A stretch of DNA of 11,544 bases, from the NCBI GenBank assembly GCA_913009765.1, contig CAJVYT010000108.1, positions 1 to 11,544 on the forward strand. Direction: 5' to 3'. Numbering within the stretch: position 1 is the stretch's first letter; every line of letters begins with the position of its first letter. This document shows positions 1-11,544 of this stretch, piece after piece. Position numbers and translations under genes: made by a program. Below the pieces are notes generated by a model, which saw nothing but the letters and a program-made list of their open reading frames with translations, searched no databases and was not told the DNA's origin. This stretch comes from an uncultured candidate division Zixibacteria bacterium. Lineage in GTDB: Bacteria; Zixibacteria; MSB-5A5; GN15; FEB-12.

Positions 1-2
1 AA

Positions 3-113
3 ATTCCCACAATATCCGAAAATGTGATCCGGAGTTCAAAGGAAAACTGGACTACGGAAATGGATAATGATAAAATACCGGATATGTTCAAACTTGGTCT
101 GGACGTTGCATGA
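3..113 (+). CDS. C-terminal end of a probable SNF2-family helicase (partial)
   Basis: An open frame enters the window from the left and stops at TGA 111-113, leaving 36 codons. The tail contains NWTTEMDNDKIPDMFKLG, which resembles the 'W-x-T-E-[LM]-[SD]-[ND]-[DE]..F-x-L' ending common in bacterial SNF2/DEAD-like helicases encoded beside SWIM zinc-finger proteins. The next gene is a SWIM protein, which supports the reading. No helicase motif lies inside the window, so the call rests on a short tail and on context; it could be another protein. Confidence 0.5.
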   Translation: MPTISENVIRSSKENWTTEMDNDKIPDMFKLGLDVA

Positions 114-132
114 AAAAAAGTAACTGCTCAGG

Positions 133-228
133 TCTCCCCCTTTGGCAAAGGGGGATTAAGGGGGATTTTTAAATAATATATTCATTAATAAAATCTCCCC
201 TAACCCCTCTTTGCCAAAGAGGGGGATA
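133..228. repeat. Pair of inverted palindromic repeats (REP/MITE-like)
   Basis: Two palindromes face each other. The left one, at 136-154, has a 9-bp perfect stem (CCCCCTTTG / CAAAGGGGG). The right one, at 204-224, has a 10-bp perfect stem (CCCCTCTTTG / CAAAGAGGGG). Their flanks are also complementary: GGATTAAGGGGGATTTT after the left one pairs largely with AAAATCTCCCCTAACC before the right one. The whole block can therefore fold into one long hairpin or two small ones. Repeats of the type 'TCCCCCTTTGGCAAAGGGGGATTAAGGGGGATTT' are, to my knowledge, common intergenic elements in several environmental bacterial phyla. The block lies between a stop codon (113) and the next ribosome binding site (246), so it may also act as a terminator or RNA stabiliser. 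Confidence 0.8.
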
Positions 229-254
229 AAGAAAATTACAACGATGGAGGGATC

Positions 255-1148
255 ATGGCCTATTGGGAATCTTTTGCCCCTTATGTAACTGTTGCTGAAA
301 AACGGGCAAAAGCAGAGAAAAAATTAAAAGCTCTTCTAAAGAAAAACCAGGACATCCAACCTGTTGTCATTGAAGGCAGAACCATAGCCAGGACATGGTG
401 GGGAAAGTCCTGGAATACTAATCTGGAAAGCTATGCCGATTATAGCAACCGCATCGGGCGTGGAAGGAGCTATGTCCGGCATAATGCCGTACTGGATTTA
501 CAAATAAAATCCGGACTTATCGAATCCATGGTGCAGGGGACAAACGCTAAACCGTACAAAATTCAGATTAAGATAAAGACCCTGAAGAAGGACATCTGGA
601 AGAATATCAAAAAGGCCTGTCAGGGAGAATTTGATTCCCTGCAGGAGCTTCTTAATGGTAAATTTCCAGAATCGTTATCGAATATATTTACTGATAAAAA
701 ATCAGGCCTGTTTCCCGCTCCTGGAGAAATCTCCTTTGATTGCAGTTGCCCTGACTGGGCTGTTATGTGCAAACATATTGCGGCCACGTTATATGGAATC
801 GGGGCCAGGCTGGATTCAGAACCTGAATTGTTCTTCACCTTAAGAGACGTAAAGATGAAAGATTTAGTCTCCGGAGCTGTTAAAGATCAGACAAGTGATC
901 TACTCAAAAAAGCCAGGCAAAAAAGCTCTAAAGTTATGGATGAGTCTGATTTGTCGGAGATATTCGGCATCGATATGGAAGAGGCGCCAACGCCTAAGAA
1001 AGCACGGTCAAAATCAAAGGAAAAACCGGCAAAAAAACCGACAGCAAAAACAAAAAAAACAGCAGCACGAAAACTCAAAAAAATTAAACCTGAAAAGAAG
1101 GCTGCCGTCAGGAAGAAGGTTACATGTAAAAAGACGAGGAGCATCTGA
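255..1148 (+). CDS. SWIM zinc-finger protein with lysine-rich C-terminal tail
   Basis: This 297-residue protein carries a clear SWIM zinc-binding motif, C163-S-C165-x6-C172-K-H174 (CxCx6CxH), preceded by the usual 'FD' strand and followed by a helix (IAATLYGIG). SWIM domains bind zinc and are thought to contact DNA or protein. In bacteria these proteins are typically encoded next to SNF2-type helicases, which fits the partial gene upstream. The N-terminal part has the 'ARTWWGKSWN' block typical of this protein group (residues about 45-54). Residues about 245-297 are a low-complexity Lys/Ala/Pro tail (repeats of the AKKP/SKSK type), resembling histone-H1-like tails and suggesting non-specific nucleic-acid binding. 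The start ATG 255 has a ribosome binding site GGAGGG at 246-251. Function in the cell is not established; a DNA repair or chromatin role is inference. Confidence 0.88.
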   Translation: MAYWESFAPYVTVAEKRAKAEKKLKALLKKNQDIQPVVIEGRTIARTWWGKSWNTNLESYADYSNRIGRGRSYVRHNAVLDLQIKSGLIESMVQGTNAKPYKIQIKIKTLKKDIWKNIKKACQGEFDSLQELLNGKFPESLSNIFTDKKSGLFPAPGEISFDCSCPDWAVMCKHIAATLYGIGARLDSEPELFFTLRDVKMKDLVSGAVKDQTSDLLKKARQKSSKVMDESDLSEIFGIDMEEAPTPKKARSKSKEKPAKKPTAKTKKTAARKLKKIKPEKKAAVRKKVTCKKTRSI

Positions 1149-1310
1149 ACATCCGGGCGCTGATATGATACATATTCATGAGGCAAGAGAATAGCAGAAT
1201 GCAGCGATTGCAACTTGACAATCAATAACACATCGGATCTCACTTTCACAATGGTAGATGGAGGCATGTCCTGGCTGTACATATATTACTTAACACAATA
1301 AGATGTCTCT

Positions 1311-1362
1311 GTAAAAATTTAGGACTGCCTGCCCAGCAGGCAGTCCTCACTGCAAATTTTTT
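1311..1362. terminator. Strong hairpin, likely bidirectional terminator
   Basis: A 12-bp perfect stem (AGGACTGCCTGC at 1321-1332 / GCAGGCAGTCCT at 1336-1347) closes a 3-base loop (CCA). It is flanked on the left by AAAAATTT (1313-1320) and on the right, after a short gap, by AAATTTTTT (1354-1362), which can extend the stem. The T-run starts about 9 bases after the main stem, so it is not a textbook intrinsic terminator. It sits between the SWIM gene and the operon promoter, where a terminator is expected. Confidence 0.6.
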
Positions 1363-1501
1363 ATAGTACCAGTTCACGGAATTTTCGGGAAAGTCGAAAA
1401 AGAAAAAAAACATTGCGACTAACCAGTTATTCTGTTAAAATGATGCAAGCTTAAAAAAGCGATTTCTTATCGTGGTATCTGTTAGATGGGGGGATTCATT
1501 G

Positions 1502-1530
1502 TTGACAGCTCAGCCGGAGATTTATTATAT
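1502..1530 (+). promoter_or_regulatory. Sigma70-type promoter of the ABC/ATPase/phosphorylase operon
   Basis: TTGACA (perfect -35) at 1502-1507 and TTATAT (-10-like) at 1525-1530 are separated by 17 bases, the optimal spacing. The expected transcription start is near 1537, only about 12 bases before the GTG at 1549. The mRNA would then have almost no leader for that start, or a leader of about 84 bases if the ATG at 1621 is used. No operator palindrome is obvious around the boxes. Confidence 0.65.
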
Positions 1531-1548
1531 ATTTGTTTAGTAATCTGA

Positions 1549-2409
1549 GTGGAGCGCCACGACAACCCTGTTTTTTATGAAAGCAGCAAACCAAACTTTC
1601 AAGTGAAAATTAATGGTAATATGGAGCAACGCAAACCTACTCAGCCAGATTCTCCAGGAATCAGGCTAAATAATATCGAATTCTCCTATAATAGTACAAG
1701 CGACCCTATTTTTAGAGGATTTTCCGAACAAATTGCTGGGGGGAAGATTACTTCATTGGTGGGCGCTTCCGGGTGTGGAAAAACCACATTGTTGGACCTT
1801 ATAGCTGGTGTTCTCCAACCAGTTGAAGGAGATATTATTAGGGATTCTTTATCAAAAAAGATGGGCTATATGTTTCAGGAATATCCCTTTATCCCCGGCT
1901 TATCTGTCATAAAACATGTTTCATTTCCTCTACGGATGCAAAGCCTACCGCGCCATGTGATTCGCTCCAAGGCAGAAAAGTGGCTCCAACGTATTGGACT
2001 ATATGATTATCAAACCTATGCTATTGAGTCTCTTTCAGCTGGTATGAAGGCGCGCGTTGCTCTTGCAACAGTTATGATCCAAGAGCCCAATATTCTCTTG
2101 TTAGATGAACCATTCAGGTCTCTGGATCTTGAAACACGTATGGACCTATGGAAACATCTTTATAACGTAAATAAAGAAAGTCATACAACCATTTTGTTAG
2201 TAACTCATGACCTGAATGAAGTGATAGCACTCTCCGATTTTGTGATAGTGTTAGGTGGCAGGCCGTGCCAGGTATTCAACCGGTGTGAAATTCCATTGAA
2301 TAGGAGTAATGGTCCTATAGGAGTATTACAAGATGAACAGTCGGGAAAATTTTTTAATAAGCTTTGGTCTGAACTTCGCAAAGCAATATATGGGGATTTA
2401 GCGGAATGA
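1549..2409 (+). CDS. ABC transporter ATP-binding protein, NitT/TauT/SsuB type
   Basis: This is the cytoplasmic ATPase that drives an importer of the nitrate/sulfonate/taurine/thiamine-precursor class. The Walker A motif is G72-A-S-G-C-G-K78-T-T. The Q-loop region (YMFQEYPFIPGLSV) follows. The signature is L162-S-A-G-M with A where G is usual. Walker B is ILLLD186-E187-P, and the H-loop is VTH220D. The long form starts at GTG 1549 (286 residues) and has no visible ribosome binding site. ATG 1621 would give 262 residues, closer to the usual family length, and the conserved fold begins just after it (IRLNNIEFSY), so 1621 is a serious alternative start. The stop overlaps the permease start by 4 bases (ATGA, 2406-2409), indicating translational coupling. 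The substrate cannot be deduced from the ATPase. Confidence 0.93.
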   Translation: MERHDNPVFYESSKPNFQVKINGNMEQRKPTQPDSPGIRLNNIEFSYNSTSDPIFRGFSEQIAGGKITSLVGASGCGKTTLLDLIAGVLQPVEGDIIRDSLSKKMGYMFQEYPFIPGLSVIKHVSFPLRMQSLPRHVIRSKAEKWLQRIGLYDYQTYAIESLSAGMKARVALATVMIQEPNILLLDEPFRSLDLETRMDLWKHLYNVNKESHTTILLVTHDLNEVIALSDFVIVLGGRPCQVFNRCEIPLNRSNGPIGVLQDEQSGKFFNKLWSELRKAIYGDLAE

Positions 2410-3164
2410 TAAAAAAAGTCATTGGCGTATTGATTTTTTTTCTCCCCTTGCTCTTTGCTATTCTTTACTGGGAGTATGTAGTGGCGAATGATACTATTTT
2501 TATAAGGCGATGGGGAACGCCTTCAGGCATCTTTATAATCATTTGGAATTGGATTGTTTCAGGTTACTTATGGCCACACATTTGGTCGACTTTCAGCATT
2601 GCGCTGGCAGGACTTGTTATAGGAGCGATTTCAGGAATTAGCCTAGCAGTGATTGCATACCGATTCAAGGACTTGGGTCTTCCTTTAGGTTCTATGATGG
2701 CTTGGTTGAACTCCTTGCCGAGGGTACTTCTTGTCCCCATTTTTATTGGTGCATTAGGTATTGGACTGGCTTCTAAACTGGCAATGGTAGTTGCAATGAC
2801 CGTATTTGTGTTTTTCTTTAACATGTCAGAAGGGCTTTCATCTATCGATAAGCGGATTGTGCTGAATGCACGTTTGCTTGGAGCAAGCCGATTTATGACT
2901 GTTTGGCATGTTCACTTACCCTTGTCTATAAAATGGTTATTGGCATGTTTGCGGCCCGCTATCGGTTTTGCTGTAATTGGTGCGATTATATCGGAATACC
3001 TTGGTGCAATATCAGGGATAGGCTATGTTGTTGATCTCGCATACGGAATGGACAAATATGATAGAGCCCTCGCAGGCATGATGGTAATTTTTGTATGCGT
3101 CGGACTAATAGACTTTATGCTTCGGCTTGCGGAGTATCGCTGGCTTCATAACTCAAAACAATGA
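2406..3164 (+). CDS. ABC transporter permease, NitT/TauT type (BPD_transp_1)
   Basis: This 252-residue inner-membrane permease has about six hydrophobic segments, beginning with a strong N-terminal one (residues about 4-25). The cytoplasmic EAA loop, which docks to the ATPase, is visible around residues 155-185: NARLLGASRFMTVWHVHLP, with the conserved G-A-S at 159-161. Length and layout match SsuC/TauC/NrtB-like permeases. It overlaps the ATPase gene by 4 bases. Its stop TGA (3162-3164) overlaps an ATG at 3161, although I prefer a later start for the next gene. Substrate unknown. Confidence 0.92.
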   Translation: MIKKVIGVLIFFLPLLFAILYWEYVVANDTIFIRRWGTPSGIFIIIWNWIVSGYLWPHIWSTFSIALAGLVIGAISGISLAVIAYRFKDLGLPLGSMMAWLNSLPRVLLVPIFIGALGIGLASKLAMVVAMTVFVFFFNMSEGLSSIDKRIVLNARLLGASRFMTVWHVHLPLSIKWLLACLRPAIGFAVIGAIISEYLGAISGIGYVVDLAYGMDKYDRALAGMMVIFVCVGLIDFMLRLAEYRWLHNSKQ

Positions 3165-3170
3165 TTCAAA

Positions 3171-3177
3171 AAGGAGG
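3171..3177 (+). promoter_or_regulatory. Strong ribosome binding site deciding the binding-protein start
   Basis: AAGGAGG lies 7 bases before ATG 3185. Its position inside the frame that would begin at ATG 3161 argues that 3185, not 3161, is the true start. A dedicated strong site also suggests that the binding protein is made in excess over the permease, as is usual for importers. Confidence 0.8.
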
Positions 3178-3184
3178 GAGAATT

Positions 3185-4345
3185 ATGATTTGGAACAGAT
3201 TTCTCAGATTATTTTTAATTGTTTTTATAGCATCGATATTACTATTTCCTCTGTTTCCTGCTACTGGTCACTGCAAAACTTTTAAACTTGGCTCTCTTGG
3301 ACATTCCTTCGGTTTTTTGCAAGTGGATATTGCTGAAACTCAAGGCGAATTTCAATGGGAGGGGCGCAAAGTAGAGGTCATACAGTTTAAGAGCGGGAAA
3401 CATGCCGCAACCGCATTGATAAATGGTGAGTTGCAGGCTGCAATACTAGGCGTCGATCATTGTATCACTGGGCTTAGGCAGGGAGTTCCCTTAAAGCAAG
3501 TCATGGTACTTAACCGTTTACCAGGGTGGTCCTTGGTTGTAGACCAAAAATATGCGGGAGAAATCCGAACTATCAGTGATCTCAAAGGCAGGAACATTGG
3601 TGTTACATCACCGGGCTCTGCCACTCATATTCTTCTAAACTACCTCCTTTCTCTTAATGGGATAGGCTCTGACAATGTGACTCCAGTCAAGGCCGGAGCC
3701 GCCACGCTTCCGGATTTTCTTACCAAGGGAGCTATAGACGCCGGGATGGCTGTGGAACCTTTTGCTACTAAGCTTGTGGATAGTGGTGCTGCCTTCGTCC
3801 TTGTTGACTTTCGTTCCGATGAACAGGTGAAGCAAGCCTTAGGCAGCAGTTATCCCATGACATCACTGATCGTGAGGCAAGACGCGATAGATAGTGATCC
3901 TGCTACAGTACAGCATGTTGTCAATGCCTTGCTCAATGCCGCTTCCTGGCTGAAAAAATCTAGCGCCGATGAAGTGATAGATCTTCTGCCTCAGGAGTAT
4001 GTTGGAGAGAAAGATCTCTGGCGACGGGCATTCACCAACTACCACGATGCATTCTCCTACGATGGCGCTATTGACCCCGACGGTATCAAATCCGTAATTG
4101 CCGCACAGGTGGCCTTCGGTAAACTCGATAGCGCAGAAGATGTCAATGCGCAGGACTTATATGATACGCAATTTCTTGCGGCCTACCAAACAAAACCATC
4201 TGCTTCGAAACCACCGTCTTCGGGCTCATCAGATCAACTAGTCCAAGAGAAAGAAGTGAACTTCCCTTGGGCTTATATAGGAATTGGTATAGCGATTATC
4301 GTTTTTATACTTATTGGAAAAGCTATCTTAAAACGCAATAAATAG
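3185..4345 (+). CDS. NMT1/NitT-family substrate-binding protein with C-terminal membrane anchor
   Basis: This is the extracytoplasmic ligand-binding component of the importer. I place the start at ATG 3185 (386 residues) because AAGGAGG at 3171-3177 lies 7 bases upstream. The ATG at 3161 would add 8 residues that contain the ribosome binding site itself. Residues 1-28 form a signal peptide (N-R-F-L-R, then a hydrophobic core); cleavage near ATG28-H29 is plausible. C30 is not in a proper lipobox. The family block ISDLKGRNIGVTSPGSATH is clear. A Ser/Pro-rich linker (KPSASKPPSSGSSD) is followed by a hydrophobic segment (residues about 361-379) and a basic end KAILKRNK, which predicts anchoring in the inner membrane with the C-terminus in the cytoplasm. 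Such an anchor is unusual for this family. The ligand is unknown; the family binds nitrate, sulfonates, and pyrimidine or purine-like compounds. Confidence 0.9.
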   Translation: MIWNRFLRLFLIVFIASILLFPLFPATGHCKTFKLGSLGHSFGFLQVDIAETQGEFQWEGRKVEVIQFKSGKHAATALINGELQAAILGVDHCITGLRQGVPLKQVMVLNRLPGWSLVVDQKYAGEIRTISDLKGRNIGVTSPGSATHILLNYLLSLNGIGSDNVTPVKAGAATLPDFLTKGAIDAGMAVEPFATKLVDSGAAFVLVDFRSDEQVKQALGSSYPMTSLIVRQDAIDSDPATVQHVVNALLNAASWLKKSSADEVIDLLPQEYVGEKDLWRRAFTNYHDAFSYDGAIDPDGIKSVIAAQVAFGKLDSAEDVNAQDLYDTQFLAAYQTKPSASKPPSSGSSDQLVQEKEVNFPWAYIGIGIAIIVFILIGKAILKRNK

Positions 4346-4356
4346 GACGCGGCAGA

Positions 4357-5796
4357 ATGAAAATCGATGATAATAAATGTGTTAATTTCTCTGACGCTAA
4401 AAAAATAACATTGGATAAGAATCTTATCGATTTTTTTGAAGGGGTTCAAGAAAAGTTGACTGAGATCCACGGGCCAGCTTTTTCCATGACAGATGGTGCT
4501 TTCAACTCCATCGGTAATGATGAGCAGCACTCCCAGAAAGTACTCGACCATCTATTTCCATCAACAATACTAAAGCTACTTGGTCATTCTCCAGGCCTCA
4601 TTCGCGGCTACGTCATTGCGCTTGATCCTTTTTCCGGCCGTTATAAGAGCTTTGGGAAAATAGGGAACTGGATTGATTTTGATGATGAGACAGGCGAATC
4701 CAGAAATATTTATGAGCAGATTTGGCGAAAAAAATGGATGCGTGGCTGTGAAAGGTTAGTTTCAGAGGGCCAATTAGCAATACGTTTTATTGAAAAGAAG
4801 TACAACTACATTGAAACACTAGAAAGTTTGCCCGGCAGGTCAGCAGTATATATTCAAGACTGGAATGATTCCAAGAGTAATGTCAGTCCAGTAACAAGAG
4901 AATTGAATATGGGTTGGTCGGTAACATCGCCAGTGTATCATCGCGGGCGTATGATCGGGTTCTTGAATATGGGTTTCCGTGAAAGGGGTACTGAAGAGAC
5001 TACAACTGAAGAGACTACAAAGGAGGCCGAAGCATGTGCAAGGAAAAACGCCCACACCATATGGTGGTTGGCCCAGAACATTCTTAGCCCTTTCCTCTTT
5101 GACGCTAGCGTTTCAATGGATGACACCAGGCTCGCAGCGCTTCTTTGGAGGGCATCTAAGTTTGATCGGAGGGGTGGAAAAGATCGATTTGCATTCGACA
5201 AGGAGCAGTTTGACGAATGGCAATGGCTTAATGATCGAGTATTTTTGATCTGTGCAATGTATCGAAATAAGGAAACGGAAGAAGGGCGGCGCTGTTCCTC
5301 AACTCAGATCATTCGGCAAACTATTAATGATCTCGCTAAAGGTTCCTTTTTTGATGATATGAAGAACAAATGGTTCAATGTTGTTATCGCCGAAGATATT
5401 CAAGAGATACCCATGCCCGAAAAAGTACTGCCGGGTGTCCTTAGAGAGCTTATCACAAATTCATTTGTGGCAGTCAGGCTGCTGCAGAAGGCAGGTACAG
5501 AAGTTATTCCCCCTTATGTGACTGTTGAAGTCAAAAGATGTCCTGAGATTGAGGATGCGAAAATAGAAATCATTGTCCGTGATAATGGAATCGGGATGGA
5601 TGCTTATACAATTTCTCGTGCCTTTGACCTGGGTTTCTCTGGATTTATACATACTGATGAGGCCAACGGTATCGGTTTGAACATTGTCCGCCTCAATGTG
5701 ATTGAATACGATGGAGAAGTACAGATTGAAAGCTGCGATTCTGAACATTATACTATGGTCAGCATTAAATTACCTTGCATTGAGGAATGTAAATGA
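4357..5796 (+). CDS. Soluble GAF-like sensor with GHKL (histidine-kinase-type) ATPase domain
   Basis: This 479-residue protein has no membrane segment. Residues about 20-215 look like a GAF-type sensory domain, ending in the typical strands 'MGWSVTSPVYHRGRMIGFLNMGF'-like at about 185-208. A Thr/Glu-rich tandem repeat (TEETT twice) follows at about 212-221, then a helical region. The C-terminus is a clear GHKL ATPase: N-box ELITN368S, G1 box D409-N-G-I-G-M, and G2 box G438-I-G-L-N. There is no canonical H-box (no HExxxP or HDxxxQ). H233 in KNAHTIWW lies in a helix 135 residues before the N-box, farther than usual, and is only a candidate phospho-acceptor. No response regulator is encoded in the window. 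It starts 11 bases after the binding-protein gene with AGGA at 4344-4347, and its stop overlaps the next start. It may sense the imported ligand or switch the phosphorylase protein; that role is inference. Confidence 0.85.
   Translation: MKIDDNKCVNFSDAKKITLDKNLIDFFEGVQEKLTEIHGPAFSMTDGAFNSIGNDEQHSQKVLDHLFPSTILKLLGHSPGLIRGYVIALDPFSGRYKSFGKIGNWIDFDDETGESRNIYEQIWRKKWMRGCERLVSEGQLAIRFIEKKYNYIETLESLPGRSAVYIQDWNDSKSNVSPVTRELNMGWSVTSPVYHRGRMIGFLNMGFRERGTEETTTEETTKEAEACARKNAHTIWWLAQNILSPFLFDASVSMDDTRLAALLWRASKFDRRGGKDRFAFDKEQFDEWQWLNDRVFLICAMYRNKETEEGRRCSSTQIIRQTINDLAKGSFFDDMKNKWFNVVIAEDIQEIPMPEKVLPGVLRELITNSFVAVRLLQKAGTEVIPPYVTVEVKRCPEIEDAKIEIIVRDNGIGMDAYTISRAFDLGFSGFIHTDEANGIGLNIVRLNVIEYDGEVQIESCDSEHYTMVSIKLPCIEECK
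4990..5019 (+). repeat. Perfect 15-bp tandem repeat, two copies
   Basis: ACTGAAGAGACTACA occurs twice with no gap (4990-5004 and 5005-5019). The period is a multiple of three, so copy-number change would keep the frame and lengthen or shorten the TEETT linker between the GAF-like part and the helical/ATPase part of the protein. Confidence 0.9.
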
Positions 5797-8261
5797 AGCG
5801 TGACCGTTCAGAAACCGCTTTGATTTTATCCAATACACCCAACTCATTAGTATTGACAAGTCTCGATATTATTGAAGCTCTCTTGGGGCTTGAGGCCAGA
5901 TTGATTCTGGTTTCATGGAACGAAGCTAATTTTGCTGATACCCTGCGAAATATCCTTTCTGAGAACATTATAGGATGTAAACTCCTGCTGGTACTATGGG
6001 AAATACCCTCTCAAGATAATTGTACGAGGCTAGATAATGAGGATGCAAATACTGTTGATGATGAAACGATTAAAAAAACGATTCGAGACGTTAAGAATAC
6101 CGCTGGGTTAAATCAGGAAGCATTTCAAACATATGTCCTCAAATCTCCCGAACATAGTATGGTCGAAGTTGAGATAGTGGAAAAAACAAAAGTACTCTTC
6201 CAAGATAATTATGCAGGGCTGAATATGGAGGATGCAAATACTATTGTCGGTGAGGTAAAATCGGAAAATTATCCAACGATTTCCTCCCGATGCCCCCAAC
6301 CTAATATAGTCAGAGTTAAAGAACCAATATCGAATAGTCTGGAACAGCAAGGAACCGCTGTGGAGGATATAACAATTGGATCAATTGAGGTTGTCGATAT
6401 GGCGACAATGGTATATATGTCGCAGGAAATTAAGGGGAATCACAATGACATAACAGACCTCTCAAAAGCAATAGCAAAAGAATCTGAAAAATTTATACAA
6501 GAAGTTGAGAAAAAAGGTTGGGTTGATGGAGTAAGCTTTAAGGAGAACTCAGACACCCCTGAAGAAATAGTGCCAGTAGTCGTCATTAATTCTGAGCAAA
6601 GTTGTTCGCTTAAGATGGAAGAAGGTAAGTGTTTTTTGAATGATAACCAACCACAAGAATTACAAAAAAATCGAGAGCTCAAGACCATTGCATCTTCAGA
6701 AATGTTTGTGAATTTCTGGTCTAAACATTCTCAGCCACGGCGACCTCCCGATTTTCCCGTGTTCGGCTGCTGTATGGATGGTTCAAAAATAAATCAAACC
6801 TTTATCCCTTTAGAATTGCTGAACACATCTCGCCGCAGTCGTATGCATGCCTGTGTTTGCAATTGGACAGGTGAGGATAATGTGAATTGCTTGGCAAACA
6901 TTAGGAACAAGTATCAACCAGCAGTAATATGGACCCAACTGCCGGATAAAGTGAATGCCGCTATCTCAACAATAACTCTCCAACATCTAATTTTACGTGA
7001 TGTACGCTCCGTCAATGCAAAATTCAATTATCCCGTTATTCGCACTATCCCTACTTTTTCAGATAGTAAATATCCAGGTTCATACAAAGGAGTGACGAAT
7101 ATTCTTCTCACCGCCGTCGATGCTGAAAGAAAGGCTGTTATGAACTCTAGCCGTTTGAACTATTGCCGTAGGATCTGGTTTCCCGATGATAAAGACGCTG
7201 AACTGTATCTTGTCAACCTCAAGCCGGTTCAAAAAGGGGACACTATGTGGCGCCCCTTTCTTCTCGGACAAACAGGCATGGGGCGTGTCAACGCAACAGC
7301 TTTTGTCCAACGCTGTCTTCATTATTGGCCGATAGAAAAAATTTTACTCACTGGTATTGCGGCTTCATTTGCAAAGCCCCTGAGCACAGTCGTTTCCAAT
7401 GAGCCTAATCTCGGGGACCTTATAATCCCAATGAAATTCGCTGATTTTGCCATGACTAAAGTATCGAGCAAAAATGGACATCATGAAACGACAGGGAAAA
7501 ACCTACCACCCGTACACATCGATCCTCAATATTCTAATATTTTGATACAGAAATTGAAGTATTATAAGAAGACTGCATACTTCAAAAAACTGAAAAACAT
7601 GGCCTGGACAACGTTCTTGCTGAATATTAAACCCGCGAGTAACAAAACAGGTGAAACTGAAGTATTAATTGACGAAGAAAGACTGAGAGCAGCTTGTGAA
7701 AAGCGCCTTAATGGTACGCTATGCCATAATGATCTTTTCGAATATATAGTTGGCAAAGCAAATGAAGGCCTTGCTGAACTTATAAAAGCAAAGGAAAATA
7801 GTGAACTGAATCTTCAGCATTGGTGGGACAACCTCGATTGGGAAATATATTGGGAGCCTTTGGCTAACAGAGAGATGATTCCAGCTTTTAATCAAATTGA
7901 GAACTCATTACTTAAAATACATTCTGGTCCCGACGTCCATGTTGTCACTGGTGACACGGTAGTTGCAGACAAAAGGTGCAAAAATTTTATTCTAAAATTG
8001 GTTGCTAAAAATTGGGGTCTATCAATAAAGGATAACGTTCGCGCTTTAGAGATGGAAAGCTATGCAATTGCCCATATGGCCTATTACTGGCCCCGCAGCG
8101 CTTCTTCTCCTCCAATAAAGATCGGAGTTATTCGGGTGATTAGTGATGATGGGGAAGAGAAAAGTGATGAATTACCATGGCGCAAGTTTTCCGAATGGTT
8201 AATTGCGGATTATGCCTTGCGCTTTCTCCAGGATGATTTGAAAATCTCACATACGACCTGA
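5793..8261 (+). CDS. Large protein with C-terminal nucleoside-phosphorylase-superfamily domain
   Basis: This protein is 822 residues, against about 230-300 for stand-alone phosphorylases or MTA/SAH nucleosidases. The C-terminal domain (about 433-822) shows the family landmarks: opening strand I437-L-L-T-A with E445; G495-M-G-R-V-N-A; the phosphate/ribose loop LLTG521-I-A-A-S; G541-D-L-I-I-P; TGDTVVADK; nucleoside-binding E753-M-E755-S; and V-I-S784-D785-D, where D785 matches the catalytic Asp position. An insertion of roughly 130 residues (about 555-700) sits between GDLIIP and TGD. Residues 1-430 are not recognised. They include an acidic region with two related 15-residue segments 63 residues apart (Q74-V88 and Q137-I151), and an alpha/beta-looking part at about 325-430. 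This gene overlaps the ATPase gene by 4 bases. It may cleave an N-glycosidic bond of a nucleoside-like ligand, or act as a nucleotide-depleting effector; both are inference. Confidence 0.85.
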   Translation: MKRDRSETALILSNTPNSLVLTSLDIIEALLGLEARLILVSWNEANFADTLRNILSENIIGCKLLLVLWEIPSQDNCTRLDNEDANTVDDETIKKTIRDVKNTAGLNQEAFQTYVLKSPEHSMVEVEIVEKTKVLFQDNYAGLNMEDANTIVGEVKSENYPTISSRCPQPNIVRVKEPISNSLEQQGTAVEDITIGSIEVVDMATMVYMSQEIKGNHNDITDLSKAIAKESEKFIQEVEKKGWVDGVSFKENSDTPEEIVPVVVINSEQSCSLKMEEGKCFLNDNQPQELQKNRELKTIASSEMFVNFWSKHSQPRRPPDFPVFGCCMDGSKINQTFIPLELLNTSRRSRMHACVCNWTGEDNVNCLANIRNKYQPAVIWTQLPDKVNAAISTITLQHLILRDVRSVNAKFNYPVIRTIPTFSDSKYPGSYKGVTNILLTAVDAERKAVMNSSRLNYCRRIWFPDDKDAELYLVNLKPVQKGDTMWRPFLLGQTGMGRVNATAFVQRCLHYWPIEKILLTGIAASFAKPLSTVVSNEPNLGDLIIPMKFADFAMTKVSSKNGHHETTGKNLPPVHIDPQYSNILIQKLKYYKKTAYFKKLKNMAWTTFLLNIKPASNKTGETEVLIDEERLRAACEKRLNGTLCHNDLFEYIVGKANEGLAELIKAKENSELNLQHWWDNLDWEIYWEPLANREMIPAFNQIENSLLKIHSGPDVHVVTGDTVVADKRCKNFILKLVAKNWGLSIKDNVRALEMESYAIAHMAYYWPRSASSPPIKIGVIRVISDDGEEKSDELPWRKFSEWLIADYALRFLQDDLKISHTT
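6012..6245 (+). repeat. Diverged internal duplication with 189-bp period
   Basis: CAAGATAATT begins at 6012 and again at 6201, and each copy continues into GAGGATGCAAATACT about 28 bases later. At protein level QDNCTRLDNEDANTV is matched by QDNYAGLNMEDANTI exactly 63 residues further on. Sequence between and after the copies is poorly conserved, so this is an old or partial tandem duplication inside the N-terminal half of the phosphorylase protein. Confidence 0.75.
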
Positions 8262-8266
8262 CTTAA

Positions 8267-9688
8267 ATGAATAATCCTGAACGAAATATCCTGTCCGTTG
8301 TTTTAATAGATCCGAATATCAAGTCTGCAACTATCGGTCGTTTTTTAAGGCATTGTAGTGTTGAACCGCTTGGTCTTGAATATGTGGCTGGCGCTATTCG
8401 CGAAATAGGCCATTCTGTAGAAATTCTCCGAGTCGAAGGATTGTCTGACGATGATGTCGTTGATAATGTTAAGCAACGCTCTCCTCAAGTAGTTGGCATT
8501 AGCGTGTTATCCTGTGACTTCCAGCGTGCGGACCACCTGTGTGAGTTGTTAAAGCTTAGCTGTCCTGAGATTGTCACTGTTCTTGGCGGTTATCATCCGA
8601 CTGCCTGTCCAGAAATTGCTTCCTTGCCGTCAGTAGATTATGTGGTGACAGGAGAGGGGGAAGCACCTTTCGCTGGGCTCTTAAAGGCACTGACTGGTGA
8701 GATTGATAAAAATGAAGTTCCTGGACTAGTTTGGCAAGACAACGAGACTTTGCGTAAGAATACTAATGCGCCATGCATCGACCTCGATGCTTTAGCCTCA
8801 CCCATCAGGAATCGCGAAATTTTAACTCAATCCCGGATTGGTGGCTTGGTTTATCCTCCGCCATCACAACAAATTGGAGTTGCACAGGTACTGACCTCAC
8901 GAGGCTGTATTTACAGATGTTCCTATTGCTGTTCTCCAAATATGTGGGGCAATCAGATACGAAAACGGCAACCCCACTTGGTTATTAAAGAGATTTCTGA
9001 ACTTCAAGCGCAATTTGAGACCAACATGATTTTTTTTGCCGATTTGAGCTTTAATGCAGACCGTACCCATGCTCTATCCATATGCGACCAGCTAGCTGCA
9101 TTGCCTAATCGCCCTAACTGGTATGGCCTCTGCAGACCAGACCATTTGGATGCTGAGTTAGTACAGGCTATGGCAAACGCTGGATGCTCCAAGGTCTCAG
9201 TCGGTATCGAGGCACTCGATGACTATACCCTGTCTCGCATCAAACCGAAGCAAACGCTGAACGTGAATTTGGTCCGCCAGAATCTGGCGATCGTAGAGCA
9301 GAGCCCGATCTTTGTTCGTGCTTTTATGATGATTGGCTACCCTTGGCAAAGCCGGGAAGATCTTGAGATTCTCAAGGATCAACTACCTGACCTACCAATA
9401 GATGAACTGCGTATTGGAATCTTTACTCCTCTGCCCGGCTCAGCGATTTTCTCTGAATATCGTGAAAGTGGTTTGCTGCTTCATGAAGATTTTTCAAAAT
9501 ATACAACGGAGGAGCCAGTCATTAAACTAAATGGGATGACTTCAGAAGAATTGCTATCTATACGGCTTGATTTATTTGAAACTTTCTATGGAAGCAGCGC
9601 TTATAAAGAAAGACTGAAAATTAAAATAGAAACCTTCCCTTGGCTCGCAGAATCATATACTGAATTTAGAGATGCTCTGAAGATCTAA
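8267..9688 (+). CDS. B12-binding-domain radical SAM enzyme
   Basis: This 473-residue enzyme has an N-terminal cobalamin-binding-like Rossmann domain (about 10-150) with G107-G-Y-H110-P and V127-T-G-E-G-E132, typical of the BchE/P-methylase-like B12 radical SAM group. The radical SAM core follows, with the 4Fe-4S cluster motif C214-IYR-C218-SY-C221 (CxxxCxxC) inside 'TSRGC..RCSYC'. Later core blocks are visible: 'GCSKVSVGIEALDD' (about 305-318) and 'MIGYPWQSREDLE'. The enzyme binds SAM and iron-sulfur, probably with cobalamin, and works in the cytoplasm without oxygen. Members often methylate unactivated carbon or remodel rings. The start ATG 8267 is 5 bases after the previous stop and has no clear ribosome binding site, suggesting coupled translation. 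Its substrate is unknown; a link to the nucleoside-like ligand of the phosphorylase is inference. No C-terminal SPASM cysteine cluster is seen. Confidence 0.92.
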   Translation: MNNPERNILSVVLIDPNIKSATIGRFLRHCSVEPLGLEYVAGAIREIGHSVEILRVEGLSDDDVVDNVKQRSPQVVGISVLSCDFQRADHLCELLKLSCPEIVTVLGGYHPTACPEIASLPSVDYVVTGEGEAPFAGLLKALTGEIDKNEVPGLVWQDNETLRKNTNAPCIDLDALASPIRNREILTQSRIGGLVYPPPSQQIGVAQVLTSRGCIYRCSYCCSPNMWGNQIRKRQPHLVIKEISELQAQFETNMIFFADLSFNADRTHALSICDQLAALPNRPNWYGLCRPDHLDAELVQAMANAGCSKVSVGIEALDDYTLSRIKPKQTLNVNLVRQNLAIVEQSPIFVRAFMMIGYPWQSREDLEILKDQLPDLPIDELRIGIFTPLPGSAIFSEYRESGLLLHEDFSKYTTEEPVIKLNGMTSEELLSIRLDLFETFYGSSAYKERLKIKIETFPWLAESYTEFRDALKI

Positions 9689-9735
9689 CAACTACTCTCT
9701 GATCTACAAATGACCACTCTGGGATAAACTTTTTT

Positions 9736-9743
9736 AAGGAGGA
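9736..9743 (+). promoter_or_regulatory. Strong ribosome binding site before the 421-residue gene
   Basis: AAGGAGGA lies 7 bases before ATG 9751. The 62-base gap (9689-9750) has no clear promoter or terminator hairpin, so this gene may be read through from the operon but initiates translation independently. Confidence 0.8.
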
Positions 9744-9750
9744 GCAACTT

Positions 9751-11016
9751 ATGAGCAAATCTGAAACAACCAATAACGTCTTGTTAAGATCTCAAACCGA
9801 GAATACTCTCGTAAACAACGTGTTTCACCTGCTCAACTCGAATGAATCAGTCATTACGAGTGATATCGATAATCTCATTAAGTATATTAATGCAATTGTG
9901 ATGTTTGACATAGTCGACCTTCCAACGGCAGCTAAAAAAGAATTGGCTGAAGAAAACATTCCAGATGTAATACAAAAAGCGGAGATTTTCAATGCCTACC
10001 TCATAGAAGATTATGAAACCAATTTAAAGGAAGCAGAAATCAGAGTTGAGAATGCGCTAAACTCCTGGCAGAGAAAAAGCAGCAGGGATTTGCCTGAAAT
10101 AGGAAGTGACTCCTCTGATTTGGACAAACAGTATACTCGGTATATTGATGACTTGCATAAAAAGCTCGACTTTGACCCCAATGCTTTTTGGAATAATTGT
10201 AAGATAAAGTCCAAACCGATATTGAATGATTGGGATAATAGAAAATTTAGAGTGATAAAAAGCGCTTTTGCAAGACCACGGTATGAAGAGTTAGATTTTC
10301 ATAAGCAATTAGGAATATACCATCTATGGAGAGCATATAATAATGTCGAGATAGTAACGAGAAATAACACAGTTTTTATCAACAATCAGGACAGAACACC
10401 ATTTGTAGCAGATGCCTATGAATCTGCTGGCAATCAATTTTTAAACAATTTTTTTTCGGGTAATGAAGTCAATCTGGAGTCTCTGCCGAAAAGAAAGTTT
10501 GAGCTCAACCTAAATAAAGATTACCTAATAAAAAGAGCTGTGCCATTACTTCTTCATAAAGTGCTTGTAAAAGCAAAATGTGAAAGAAAAAGGGTTGCAG
10601 ACGCAATCCTGGATGTCAGACACTCAAAGAGCGCCGAAAGGTTCAGGGCAAAGTATAGGCAAATACTGGAAAGAGATTATGGTAGAGACAATCCGAGGCG
10701 GGTCACAAATGAGATCAGCAAGGATTTTAATAGTCTACTCTCAATACTTCAATCACTAGATGACAAACGTTTGCAGCCATTGATTGCTATTCTTCCTTTC
10801 TCACAAGTTATAGCAGCAGTCATGATTGCTTATGAATATTGTGACATAAAGAGCTTGAAAGAGATTCTGGTATTGGGATCACTCGCTGCATTATCTAAGC
10901 CGCTAATGAAATACTATGATTTAAGGCACTTATGGTTTTTCTCGCCAGTTCTCTTTGGCAGTTATGATAAGGAGCTTGGCGATCTCCTGAAAAAAACTTT
11001 TGGTGAGATCGGTTAG
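9751..11016 (+). CDS. Protein of unknown family, 421 residues
   Basis: I do not recognise this protein. It is real by length, its strong ribosome binding site (9736-9743), and same-strand placement behind the operon. The first 120 residues look helical and charged (possible coiled coil at about 70-115, 'KEAEIRVENALNSW'). A middle part (about 150-260) is rich in aromatic and basic residues (RPRYEELDFHKQLGIYHLWRAY; 'NNQDRTPFVADAYESAGNQFL'). The C-terminal fifth (about 340-400) has hydrophobic helices ('PLIAILPFSQVIAAVMIAY' and 'EILVLGSLAALSKPL') that could be buried helices or weak membrane segments. No signal peptide, Walker motif, metal-binding cluster or catalytic signature is visible. It lies 62 bases after the radical SAM gene, and its relation to the module is uncertain. 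Confidence 0.75.
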   Translation: MSKSETTNNVLLRSQTENTLVNNVFHLLNSNESVITSDIDNLIKYINAIVMFDIVDLPTAAKKELAEENIPDVIQKAEIFNAYLIEDYETNLKEAEIRVENALNSWQRKSSRDLPEIGSDSSDLDKQYTRYIDDLHKKLDFDPNAFWNNCKIKSKPILNDWDNRKFRVIKSAFARPRYEELDFHKQLGIYHLWRAYNNVEIVTRNNTVFINNQDRTPFVADAYESAGNQFLNNFFSGNEVNLESLPKRKFELNLNKDYLIKRAVPLLLHKVLVKAKCERKRVADAILDVRHSKSAERFRAKYRQILERDYGRDNPRRVTNEISKDFNSLLSILQSLDDKRLQPLIAILPFSQVIAAVMIAYEYCDIKSLKEILVLGSLAALSKPLMKYYDLRHLWFFSPVLFGSYDKELGDLLKKTFGEIG

Positions 11017-11082
11017 AAAAAAGGAACATCATATATCCATCCTCAAGAGATGATGAAAAAAGCAGTAGGTGGTGTCTACGCT

Positions 11083-11229
11083 GGCTGTTGCCCAAATCAA
11101 TATTCTAATAAAAAATGTCTAATTGCTGAATAAACTCAACTTGTAAGTATACTATTTTTCAACATTTCTTATAGGTGGATCTATATAATATTTAAAAGAT
11201 ATTCATTGATTTGGGTTTGGGCAACAGCC
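11083..11229. mobile_element. 147-base AT-rich element with terminal inverted repeats (MITE-like)
   Basis: The outer 14 bases are a perfect inverted repeat: GGCTGTTGCCCAAA at 11083-11096 and TTTGGGCAACAGCC at 11216-11229. The left arm continues as TCAAT; its complement is present in the right arm (from 11205) but offset by a 6-base insertion (GGGTTT), so about 19 bases match overall. The interior is AT-rich and non-coding. No clear target-site duplication: the flanks are CGCT (11079-11082) and CGTT (11230-11233), which match at 3 of 4 positions. The structure suits a miniature non-autonomous element or the fused ends of a deleted insertion sequence. Confidence 0.6.
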
Positions 11230-11303
11230 CGTTTATCTGTGATGGGTATTGATGATTTATTAATGACTGATTAAAATAGACGGAAAATATCATTTAAGGG
11301 GCC

Positions 11304-11428
11304 ATGGTAAAAATGGCAGACCGCTACGGATTCAGTATCCCGGCGCAGTATACCACATAACCTGCCGGGGCAACGCAAGACAGGACATATACAAAGATAA
11401 CAAAGACAGAAAAGCATTTGTTGTATAG
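11304..11428 (+). pseudogene. Frameshifted, truncated REP-associated/IS200-like transposase start
   Basis: From ATG 11304 or 11313 the frame gives only a few codons of the expected start (M-A). One base appears to be missing near 11318-11320. In the next frame (codons from 11321) the sequence reads PLRIQYPGAVYHITCRGN, then ARQDIYKDNKDRKAF, the characteristic N-terminus of Y1-type REP-associated transposases ('MARPLRI.YPGA.YH.T.RGN'). It then runs into TAG 11426-11428 after about 35 codons, and family sequence stops. The gene is therefore doubly broken (frameshift and truncation) and cannot be active. GGGG just before 11304 may be its old ribosome binding site. Confidence 0.85.
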
Positions 11429-11544
11429 CAAATTAAACTAACCCCCCAAGCCGCAAATTAATCAAAATAAGCCAACCCAAAGAATAAGCCATTCAGATTA
11501 AAATAACCGGAACAAAGATCAAAGAAAGGAACCCGAAGCAGGGA

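Follow-up and report, generated by a model that had tools for sequence, protein, structure and literature searches.

A tightly packed Zixibacteria operon combining an ABC importer, a GHKL ATPase, a phosphorylase-domain protein and a B12-binding radical SAM protein

Introduction

The nearest named arrangement known to us in which a GHKL protein stands next to a protein of the purine nucleoside phosphorylase (PNP) superfamily is Detocs. Its PNP effector bears a receiver domain, and its histidine kinase has a phospho-accepting histidine. Here we describe a six-gene operon, followed by a seventh gene, in a stretch of 11,544 nucleotides (the window) that covers positions 1–11,544 of the forward strand of contig CAJVYT010000108.1 (assembly GCA_913009765.1) from an uncultured candidate division Zixibacteria bacterium. 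The operon joins a GHKL ATPase and an 822-residue phosphorylase-domain protein to an ATP-binding cassette (ABC) importer and a B12-binding radical S-adenosylmethionine (SAM) protein, and we tentatively read it as a set of genes for importer-fed small-molecule chemistry.

Other described systems share parts with this locus. Futalosine hydrolase and the nucleosidase HpnG cleave adenosylated intermediates. PMC11249213 presents Detocs as a three-gene system whose best-described form has a PNP effector that cleaves ATP. In conflict systems, nucleoside phosphorylase domains are counted among the effectors or the domains that handle second messengers (PMC7159879), and the same source also places both nucleoside phosphorylase and radical SAM domains in conflict systems of other settings. 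According to PMC8102628, radical SAM enzymes are inhibited by 5'-deoxyadenosine. Finally, an operon for selenocysteine-assisted organometallic (SAO) metabolism has been described, and the ABC subunits SaoX, SaoB and SaoP are given as selenoproteins (PMC13188914).

Organization of the operon

The window contains eight long genes in its list of open reading frames (ORFs), all on the forward strand. Six co-directional genes (1549–9688) are tightly packed, as the original prediction for this DNA had stated: three junctions are 4-nt overlaps (2406/2409, 3161/3164 and 5793/5796), the binding-protein and GHKL genes are separated by 11 nt, and the phosphorylase and radical SAM genes by 5 nt. A seventh gene (9751–11016) begins 62 nt beyond the radical SAM gene, and because of this gap it may be a separate unit; the eighth encodes a SWIM-type protein and lies upstream of the operon. 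The predicted parts list of importer, GHKL ATPase, phosphorylase domain and B12 radical SAM protein is borne out by Pfam matches above cut-off to ABC_tran, BPD_transp_1, NMT1_2 together with NMT1, HATPase_c, PNP_UDP_1, B12-binding and Radical_SAM. The operon is thus real and composed of known domains, and its six genes are presumably co-transcribed. Synonymous codon usage in each of the eight genes correlates with that of the other seven at 0.67–0.91, and given this uniformity the orphans would seem to be genuine genes that share a single genome with the rest.

One good promoter at 1502 had also been proposed. A TTGACA box with an AT-rich −10-like stretch is indeed present on the forward strand at 1502–1530, where it was recognized by eye, but the site is absent from the list produced by a sigma-70 promoter scan. 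That scan gives two 9-of-12 sites upstream on the same strand (1290–1318 and 1413–1441), and promoter-like sites are no commoner in the window than in shuffled sequence (21 versus 27.7 ± 6.3). The first gene has no evident Shine-Dalgarno sequence at its GTG codon (1549), and where it truly begins is therefore uncertain. The window has no Rfam match, and a search of it for tRNA genes was empty.

We found no named system with this set of genes in Pfam, NCBIfam or PADLOC (all eight proteins) or in PHROGs (four proteins, of which just the SWIM protein and the ATPase domain gave informative results), which agrees with the original prediction. An open-access literature search, beyond whose reach most subscription papers lie, likewise found no paper on the set.

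The radical SAM protein and its relatives

The last gene of the packed series (8267–9688, forward strand) encodes the B12-binding radical SAM protein, in which the FeS motif CxxxCxxC is intact (CIYRCSYC at position 214) and the Radical_SAM match scores 48.6 bits against a Pfam cut-off of 29.5. It belongs to a clade whose members are diverse, and only this gene of the window has clear full-length kin: a search that scored 7,998 candidates gave 30 proteins at 33–45% identity and then 22 at 30% or less. The closest are P0002 to P0006, at 42–45%. In a tree of 66 rows, midpoint-rooted for drawing only and with bootstrap values that had not settled, the window protein falls in a group of 35 rows (support 99/97) with L002, L003 and L210, and this nests in a group of 39 rows (100/100) that includes L004, L172, L173 and L212. 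The window branch is long, at 1.1 compared with 0.17–0.50 in its nearest kin.

At strict limits no close relative was found in 395 genomes of one phylum (1e-60; four candidates scored per genome listed) or in 199 genomes of a second phylum (query P0022, 1e-90). Among 194 genomes from the phylum to which the Pacearchaeota genome with L003 belongs, 47 match P0005 at 1e-50, most of them at 26–35% identity, and the lower-scoring matches that were placed in the tree (L213, L214 and L217) fall outside the window group. Plasmid matches are all below 28% identity among the best 12 of 27 records. Six PDB chains match, the best being apramycin oxidoreductase (6fd2, 7.5e-21).

The BchE-type enzymes (TIGR02026 and TIGR04072) share with the window protein the B12-binding plus radical SAM architecture, the CxxxCxxC motif and alignment over most of its length, but its best score, that to BchE, is 156.5 bits where 481 are needed, and the window kin group is separate from the more distant hits. 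Identification as BchE, HpnR or BzaD is rejected on scores below the NCBIfam cut-offs, and the best 25 of 26 matches listed to named B12 radical SAM families are all below the equivalog cut-off.

Neighbourhoods of related radical SAM genes

We collected 158 radical SAM loci, in sets of 80 and 78, many of which are short and most of which lie outside the window clade; the relatives matched in genome contigs are a lower bound on those that exist. No homologue of the phosphorylase protein, the gene 7 product or the SWIM protein was detected at any of the 158, nor of the GHKL protein, whose sole match is a plasmid locus fetched for the GHKL protein itself. Neighbours were detected with the window's own fast-diverging sequences, with which misses are possible.

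Flanks were read for seven members of the wider group (L002, L003, L004, L172, L173, L210 and L212), three of which, L003, L172 and L173, belong to the one Pacearchaeota genome; P0002–P0006 are not among the seven. A TrmB-type regulator adjoins the radical SAM gene or lies one gene away in four of them, namely L003, L172 and L173 by Pfam and L002 by homology, where the regulator is split across two ORFs. In the archaeal genome three wider-group radical SAM genes each have their own TrmB-type regulator at most one gene off (L003:8121–11284, L172:7473–9712 and L173:6661–8860). The L172 gene also overlaps by 4 nt, beside its regulator, a sub-threshold match to a cyclodipeptide synthase (23.7 of 27 bits; L172:6757–8861); the two genes of this tiny archaeal genome possibly act as a pair in the tailoring of small peptides.

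The L003 locus in part parallels the window. There an ORF for an NMT1-type binding protein (9004–10053) overlaps the radical SAM ORF (10022–11284) by 32 nt, and this binding protein is the sole match across 109 genomes of the order to which the Pacearchaeota genome belongs (1e-10). Like the window, it has an NMT1-type binding protein together with a radical SAM protein that belongs to the same clade. It differs in its TrmB-type regulator and in that genes for an ATPase, a permease, a GHKL protein or a nucleosidase do not adjoin the pair. This pairing is the one association seen twice, but it is suggestive only, the case having been picked from among many loci. Elsewhere, in bacterium BMS3Abin06 (L010:9379–15669), genes recognized by eye as MoaD-like, ferredoxin-like, B12 radical SAM and AOR-like are followed by an NMT1-type importer, a cluster that by eye looks tungsten-enzyme-like; its radical SAM protein falls outside the window group in the tree.

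The phosphorylase-domain protein

The 822-residue protein (5793–8261, forward strand) consists of an unclassified N-terminal part of about 430 residues and a nucleosidase domain of the methylthioadenosine/S-adenosylhomocysteine (MTA/SAH) nucleosidase (MTAN) type, interrupted by an insert. The domain occupies approximately residues 436–815, with its best Pfam stretch at 490–586 (PNP_UDP_1, PF01048; 38.0 bits against a gathering score of 25.1). The NCBIfam MTA/SAH nucleosidase model covers residues 707–812, entering at model position 139; since the Pfam stretch ends at 586 and this model resumes at 707, an insert of about 120 residues (587–706) probably separates the two. The best named matches of the domain are MTA/SAH nucleosidase (PRK05584) and futalosine hydrolase (TIGR03664), the latter resembling its start weakly, and fold motifs are shared with them: by eye we found DAER at 443, GMGRVNA at 495, LGDLIIP at 540, LEMES at 752 and ISDD at 783. 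DAER, LEMES and ISDD we take to be putative equivalents of the catalytic Glu, Glu and Asp, on a match by eye to the E. coli residues. The window protein nevertheless scores far below the cut-offs of both families (32.4 bits against 169 and 28.4 against 124.7, respectively) and differs from them in its insert and in an N-terminal part that has no relatives.

Residues 1–429 have no Pfam match even at an E value of 10. Receiver domains seen there by eye, at residues 1–70 and 320–430, were dropped, as the two stretches score −1.2 and 1.0 bits against a receiver profile built from seven sequences, where the best of 100 shuffles reach 4.9 and 4.4. The N-terminal part of the gene also carries two 64-nt copies with 75% identity, 189 nt apart (6001–6253), which on their sequence are an internal duplication of a linker-like region.

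A search of 5.8 billion proteins with residues 300–822, with scoring confined to the 7,994 candidates that had the most words in common with the query, returned one match, P0001. This near-copy of 787 residues is encoded on a contig of 3,379 bases; it is identical across 92% of the query stretch and has a different tail. Relatives were absent from the genome contigs, viral contigs, plasmids and phages searched, from 297 genomes of one phylum at 1e-3, and, at the same limit, from 149 genomes of the order that holds the best match of the SWIM protein, where there was one weak 100-residue match (E 0.0128). The whole protein has no match among PDB sequences at an E value of 1, and pieces of the nucleosidase domain gave insignificant matches only, including two MTA/SAH nucleosidases at E 0.6. 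Profiles built from PNP loci produced no useful alignment with the domain, and AlphaFold models predicted from single sequences were too poor to use (mean pLDDT of 32 for the 822-residue protein and 36 for the gene 7 product).

The GHKL ATPase

The gene immediately upstream (4357–5796, forward strand) encodes a GHKL protein of 479 residues with an HATPase_c domain (46.1 bits; Pfam gathering score 26.4), an N-box (LRELITNS, 362), DNGIGM at 409 and GIGL at 438. Its N-terminal region is unclassified and GAF-like by eye only. HisKA is not among the Pfam families listed for the protein, and H233 is the sole histidine from residue 195 to the ATPase domain, leaving a single candidate phospho-accepting residue.

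No relative was found at 1e-3 among 3,804 candidates scored from the collection of 5.8 billion proteins, none among viruses, and none, at 1e-10, in 108 genomes from the order in which the SWIM protein has its best match. Eleven plasmid records match at 24–39% identity, none over more than 80% of the query, and the one match examined is an ordinary histidine kinase with a HELRSP box. Comparison with PDB sequences gave weak matches only (best E 0.17).

The importer genes

The first three genes of the operon, all on the forward strand, encode the importer ATPase (1549–2409; Walker A GASGCGKT, signature LSAG and Walker B LLLDEP), an SsuC/TauC-like permease (2406–3164) with five hydrophobic segments by Kyte-Doolittle analysis, and an NMT1/SsuA-type substrate-binding protein (3161–4345). 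Hydrophobic segments of the last begin at residues 14 and 372, and it is predicted to be membrane-anchored. As in the SsuA/TauA-type importers of the NMT1 family, ATPase, permease and binding protein form one unit, but the window binding protein has the extra C-terminal hydrophobic segment, and scores are below the cut-offs of the listed families. In the order of the best SWIM match, 3 of 149 genomes match the binding protein at 1e-12, with 24–27% identity.

Other features of the window

Gene 7 (9751–11016, forward strand) is preceded by a strong Shine-Dalgarno sequence, AAGGAGGAG, and encodes an orphan protein of 421 residues with one borderline hydrophobic segment from residue 343. That it belongs to no known family had been predicted and holds for Pfam. 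There are no relatives among plasmids, phages or viruses or in 107 genomes from that same order with the best SWIM match (0.01), and PDB matches are weak (best E 0.25). The GHKL, 822-residue and gene 7 proteins are accordingly without detectable full-length kin in the sequence collections searched, apart from P0001. An empty search of genomes says nothing, however, unless one of them is already known to match, and searches of the family and pattern types favour close kin.

The upstream gene (255–1148) encodes a SWIM-type zinc-finger protein, whose Pfam SWIM match is below cut-off, with a lysine- and alanine-rich tail and a match to PHROG 29996 at 7e-26. It matches 17 of 247 genomes at 1e-40 in Desulfobacterota, the phylum of a Syntrophus metagenome-assembled genome (best four, 53–63%), and 4 of 30 mixed genomes at 36–46%. 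Taken by themselves, these matches would make a Desulfobacterota host likely. Upstream of it, at 133–226, lie inverted 37-nt arms rich in CCCCC/GGGGG that resemble a small mobile repeat. Downstream of gene 7, at 11304–11430, there is by eye a short, broken remnant like the start of a REP-associated transposase gene.

Discussion

The evidence leans weakly toward importer-fed small-molecule chemistry, and the reading that we favour, while holding it to be short of probable, is a lineage-specific one in which radical SAM chemistry is supported by an adenosine-type nucleosidase and a regulatory ATPase. The NMT1/SsuA-type importer, judging from its family, would take up an organic precursor, and the B12-dependent radical SAM enzyme would modify this precursor or a product that the cell makes from it. 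The MTAN-type domain could then cut the adenosine-type N-glycosidic bond of an adenosylated intermediate, or of the SAM by-products SAH and 5'-deoxyadenosine, while the GHKL protein, whose gene overlaps the nucleosidase gene by 4 nt, might make that enzyme respond to ATP and to a ligand that it senses. The genes, domains, packing and motif residues are observed; the regulatory step and all substrates in this scheme we infer from them.

We favour this chemistry because the genes are tightly packed and uniform in codon usage, because the best named matches of the domain are nucleosidases of 5'-modified adenosines, because one further locus pairs a binding protein with a radical SAM gene from this group, and because the 5'-modified adenosine released by radical SAM enzymes is inhibitory. 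The TrmB-type regulators in four of seven flanks (three in one genome), together with the cyclodipeptide-synthase-like overlap, would also suit regulated small-molecule chemistry. Several points weigh against it. Two other genes stand between the binding-protein gene and the radical SAM gene of the window; a binding protein occurs in one of the seven clade neighbourhoods, without an adjoining ATPase or permease, and it is only 22% identical to that of the window (E 1e-5; the radical SAM proteins are 31% identical). A housekeeping nucleosidase would hardly be expected to have 430 extra N-terminal residues and so large an insert, the domain scores 32 bits where named families need 169, and the substrate assignment is putative for every gene. 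Furthermore, no GHKL or phosphorylase gene was found in the seven flanks (by homology in all seven and by Pfam for ten neighbours in L003, L172, L173 and L210).

Joint recurrence of the ATPase, phosphorylase and radical SAM genes, which the original prediction named as support, was thus detected neither in the 158 loci nor in the seven clade flanks. Homologues in unrelated contexts, which it named as evidence against an unrecognized system, were found for the radical SAM gene; for the GHKL, phosphorylase and gene 7 proteins there are no full-length kin, P0001 aside, whose contexts could be compared. The operon stands, but that it is an unrecognized system is a hypothesis, because recurrence was not found in the loci read and the closest kin lie outside them.

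These results also bear on an alternative that we hold to be only slightly less likely than the favoured reading, that the locus is a lineage-specific assembly with no single pathway, in which unrelated genes have gathered behind one promoter in a fast-evolving genome and their order has little functional meaning. It would account for the failure to find a second copy of the gene set, for the absence of GHKL, phosphorylase and gene 7 homologues beside any radical SAM gene examined and from the sampled genomes at the limits used, and for the long branch on which the radical SAM protein sits. A random set of six genes would, however, seldom be joined by three overlaps of 4 nt and two short gaps, the pairing of binding protein and radical SAM gene recurs in an archaeon, and P0002–P0006 lie beyond the neighbourhoods on which the negative results depend.

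Importer-fed chemistry must further be set against the likeness to Detocs. The GHKL gene lies directly upstream of, and overlaps, a gene of the PNP superfamily, and the pair may work in a Detocs-like manner, by analogy, as a defence or stress pair in which the GHKL protein is a sensor-kinase-like switch, the phosphorylase protein a nucleotide-depleting effector, and the importer and radical SAM genes bystanders or accessories. The divergence of these proteins and their want of kin would suit conflict genes. We nevertheless consider this unlikely. Unlike Detocs, the window has no detected receiver domain, given the shuffle-like scores and the empty Pfam result for residues 1–429, and no recognized third Detocs-like gene; H233 is the only candidate phospho-histidine near the ATPase domain; and PADLOC has no family for either protein at E 0.1, in a release whose coverage of Detocs was not checked. 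Moreover, junctions of 11 and 5 nt tie the pair to its neighbours on either side, the importer and the radical SAM gene. None of the eight window proteins matches vWA or MoxR in Pfam, which speaks against such a defence pair, and on the same result vWA-MoxR and VMAP ternary conflict systems are rejected for want of a partner.

A variant that we regard as improbable is that the GHKL and 822-residue proteins constitute a signalling pair of a new kind, switched by ATP and lacking receiver domains, which would sense an imported or radical-SAM-made molecule and answer by cleaving a nucleotide, a ligand-gated nucleosidase linking import, radical chemistry and nucleotide depletion. An SAO-like metabolism, with an NMT1-type importer and radical chemistry for an organometal, is barely credible: SaoA and SaoP are among the three best NCBIfam matches of the importer ATPase and permease, but SaoA (140 of 360 bits), SaoP (46 of 295) and SaoX (17 of 300) are all far under cut-off, on which an SAO operon is rejected, and SaoB, SaoC, SaoL and SaoT are not among the matches listed for the eight proteins (for the ATPase, the best 25 of 191).

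If the six genes do act as a module, it would unite an importer with B12 radical SAM chemistry and with a nucleosidase dedicated to the purpose, the whole under ATP-linked control, and would provide a handle on this clade of radical SAM proteins. The 822-residue protein presents a nucleosidase architecture of which only its own near-copy was found in a very large protein collection, and to learn its activity would be informative whichever reading holds.

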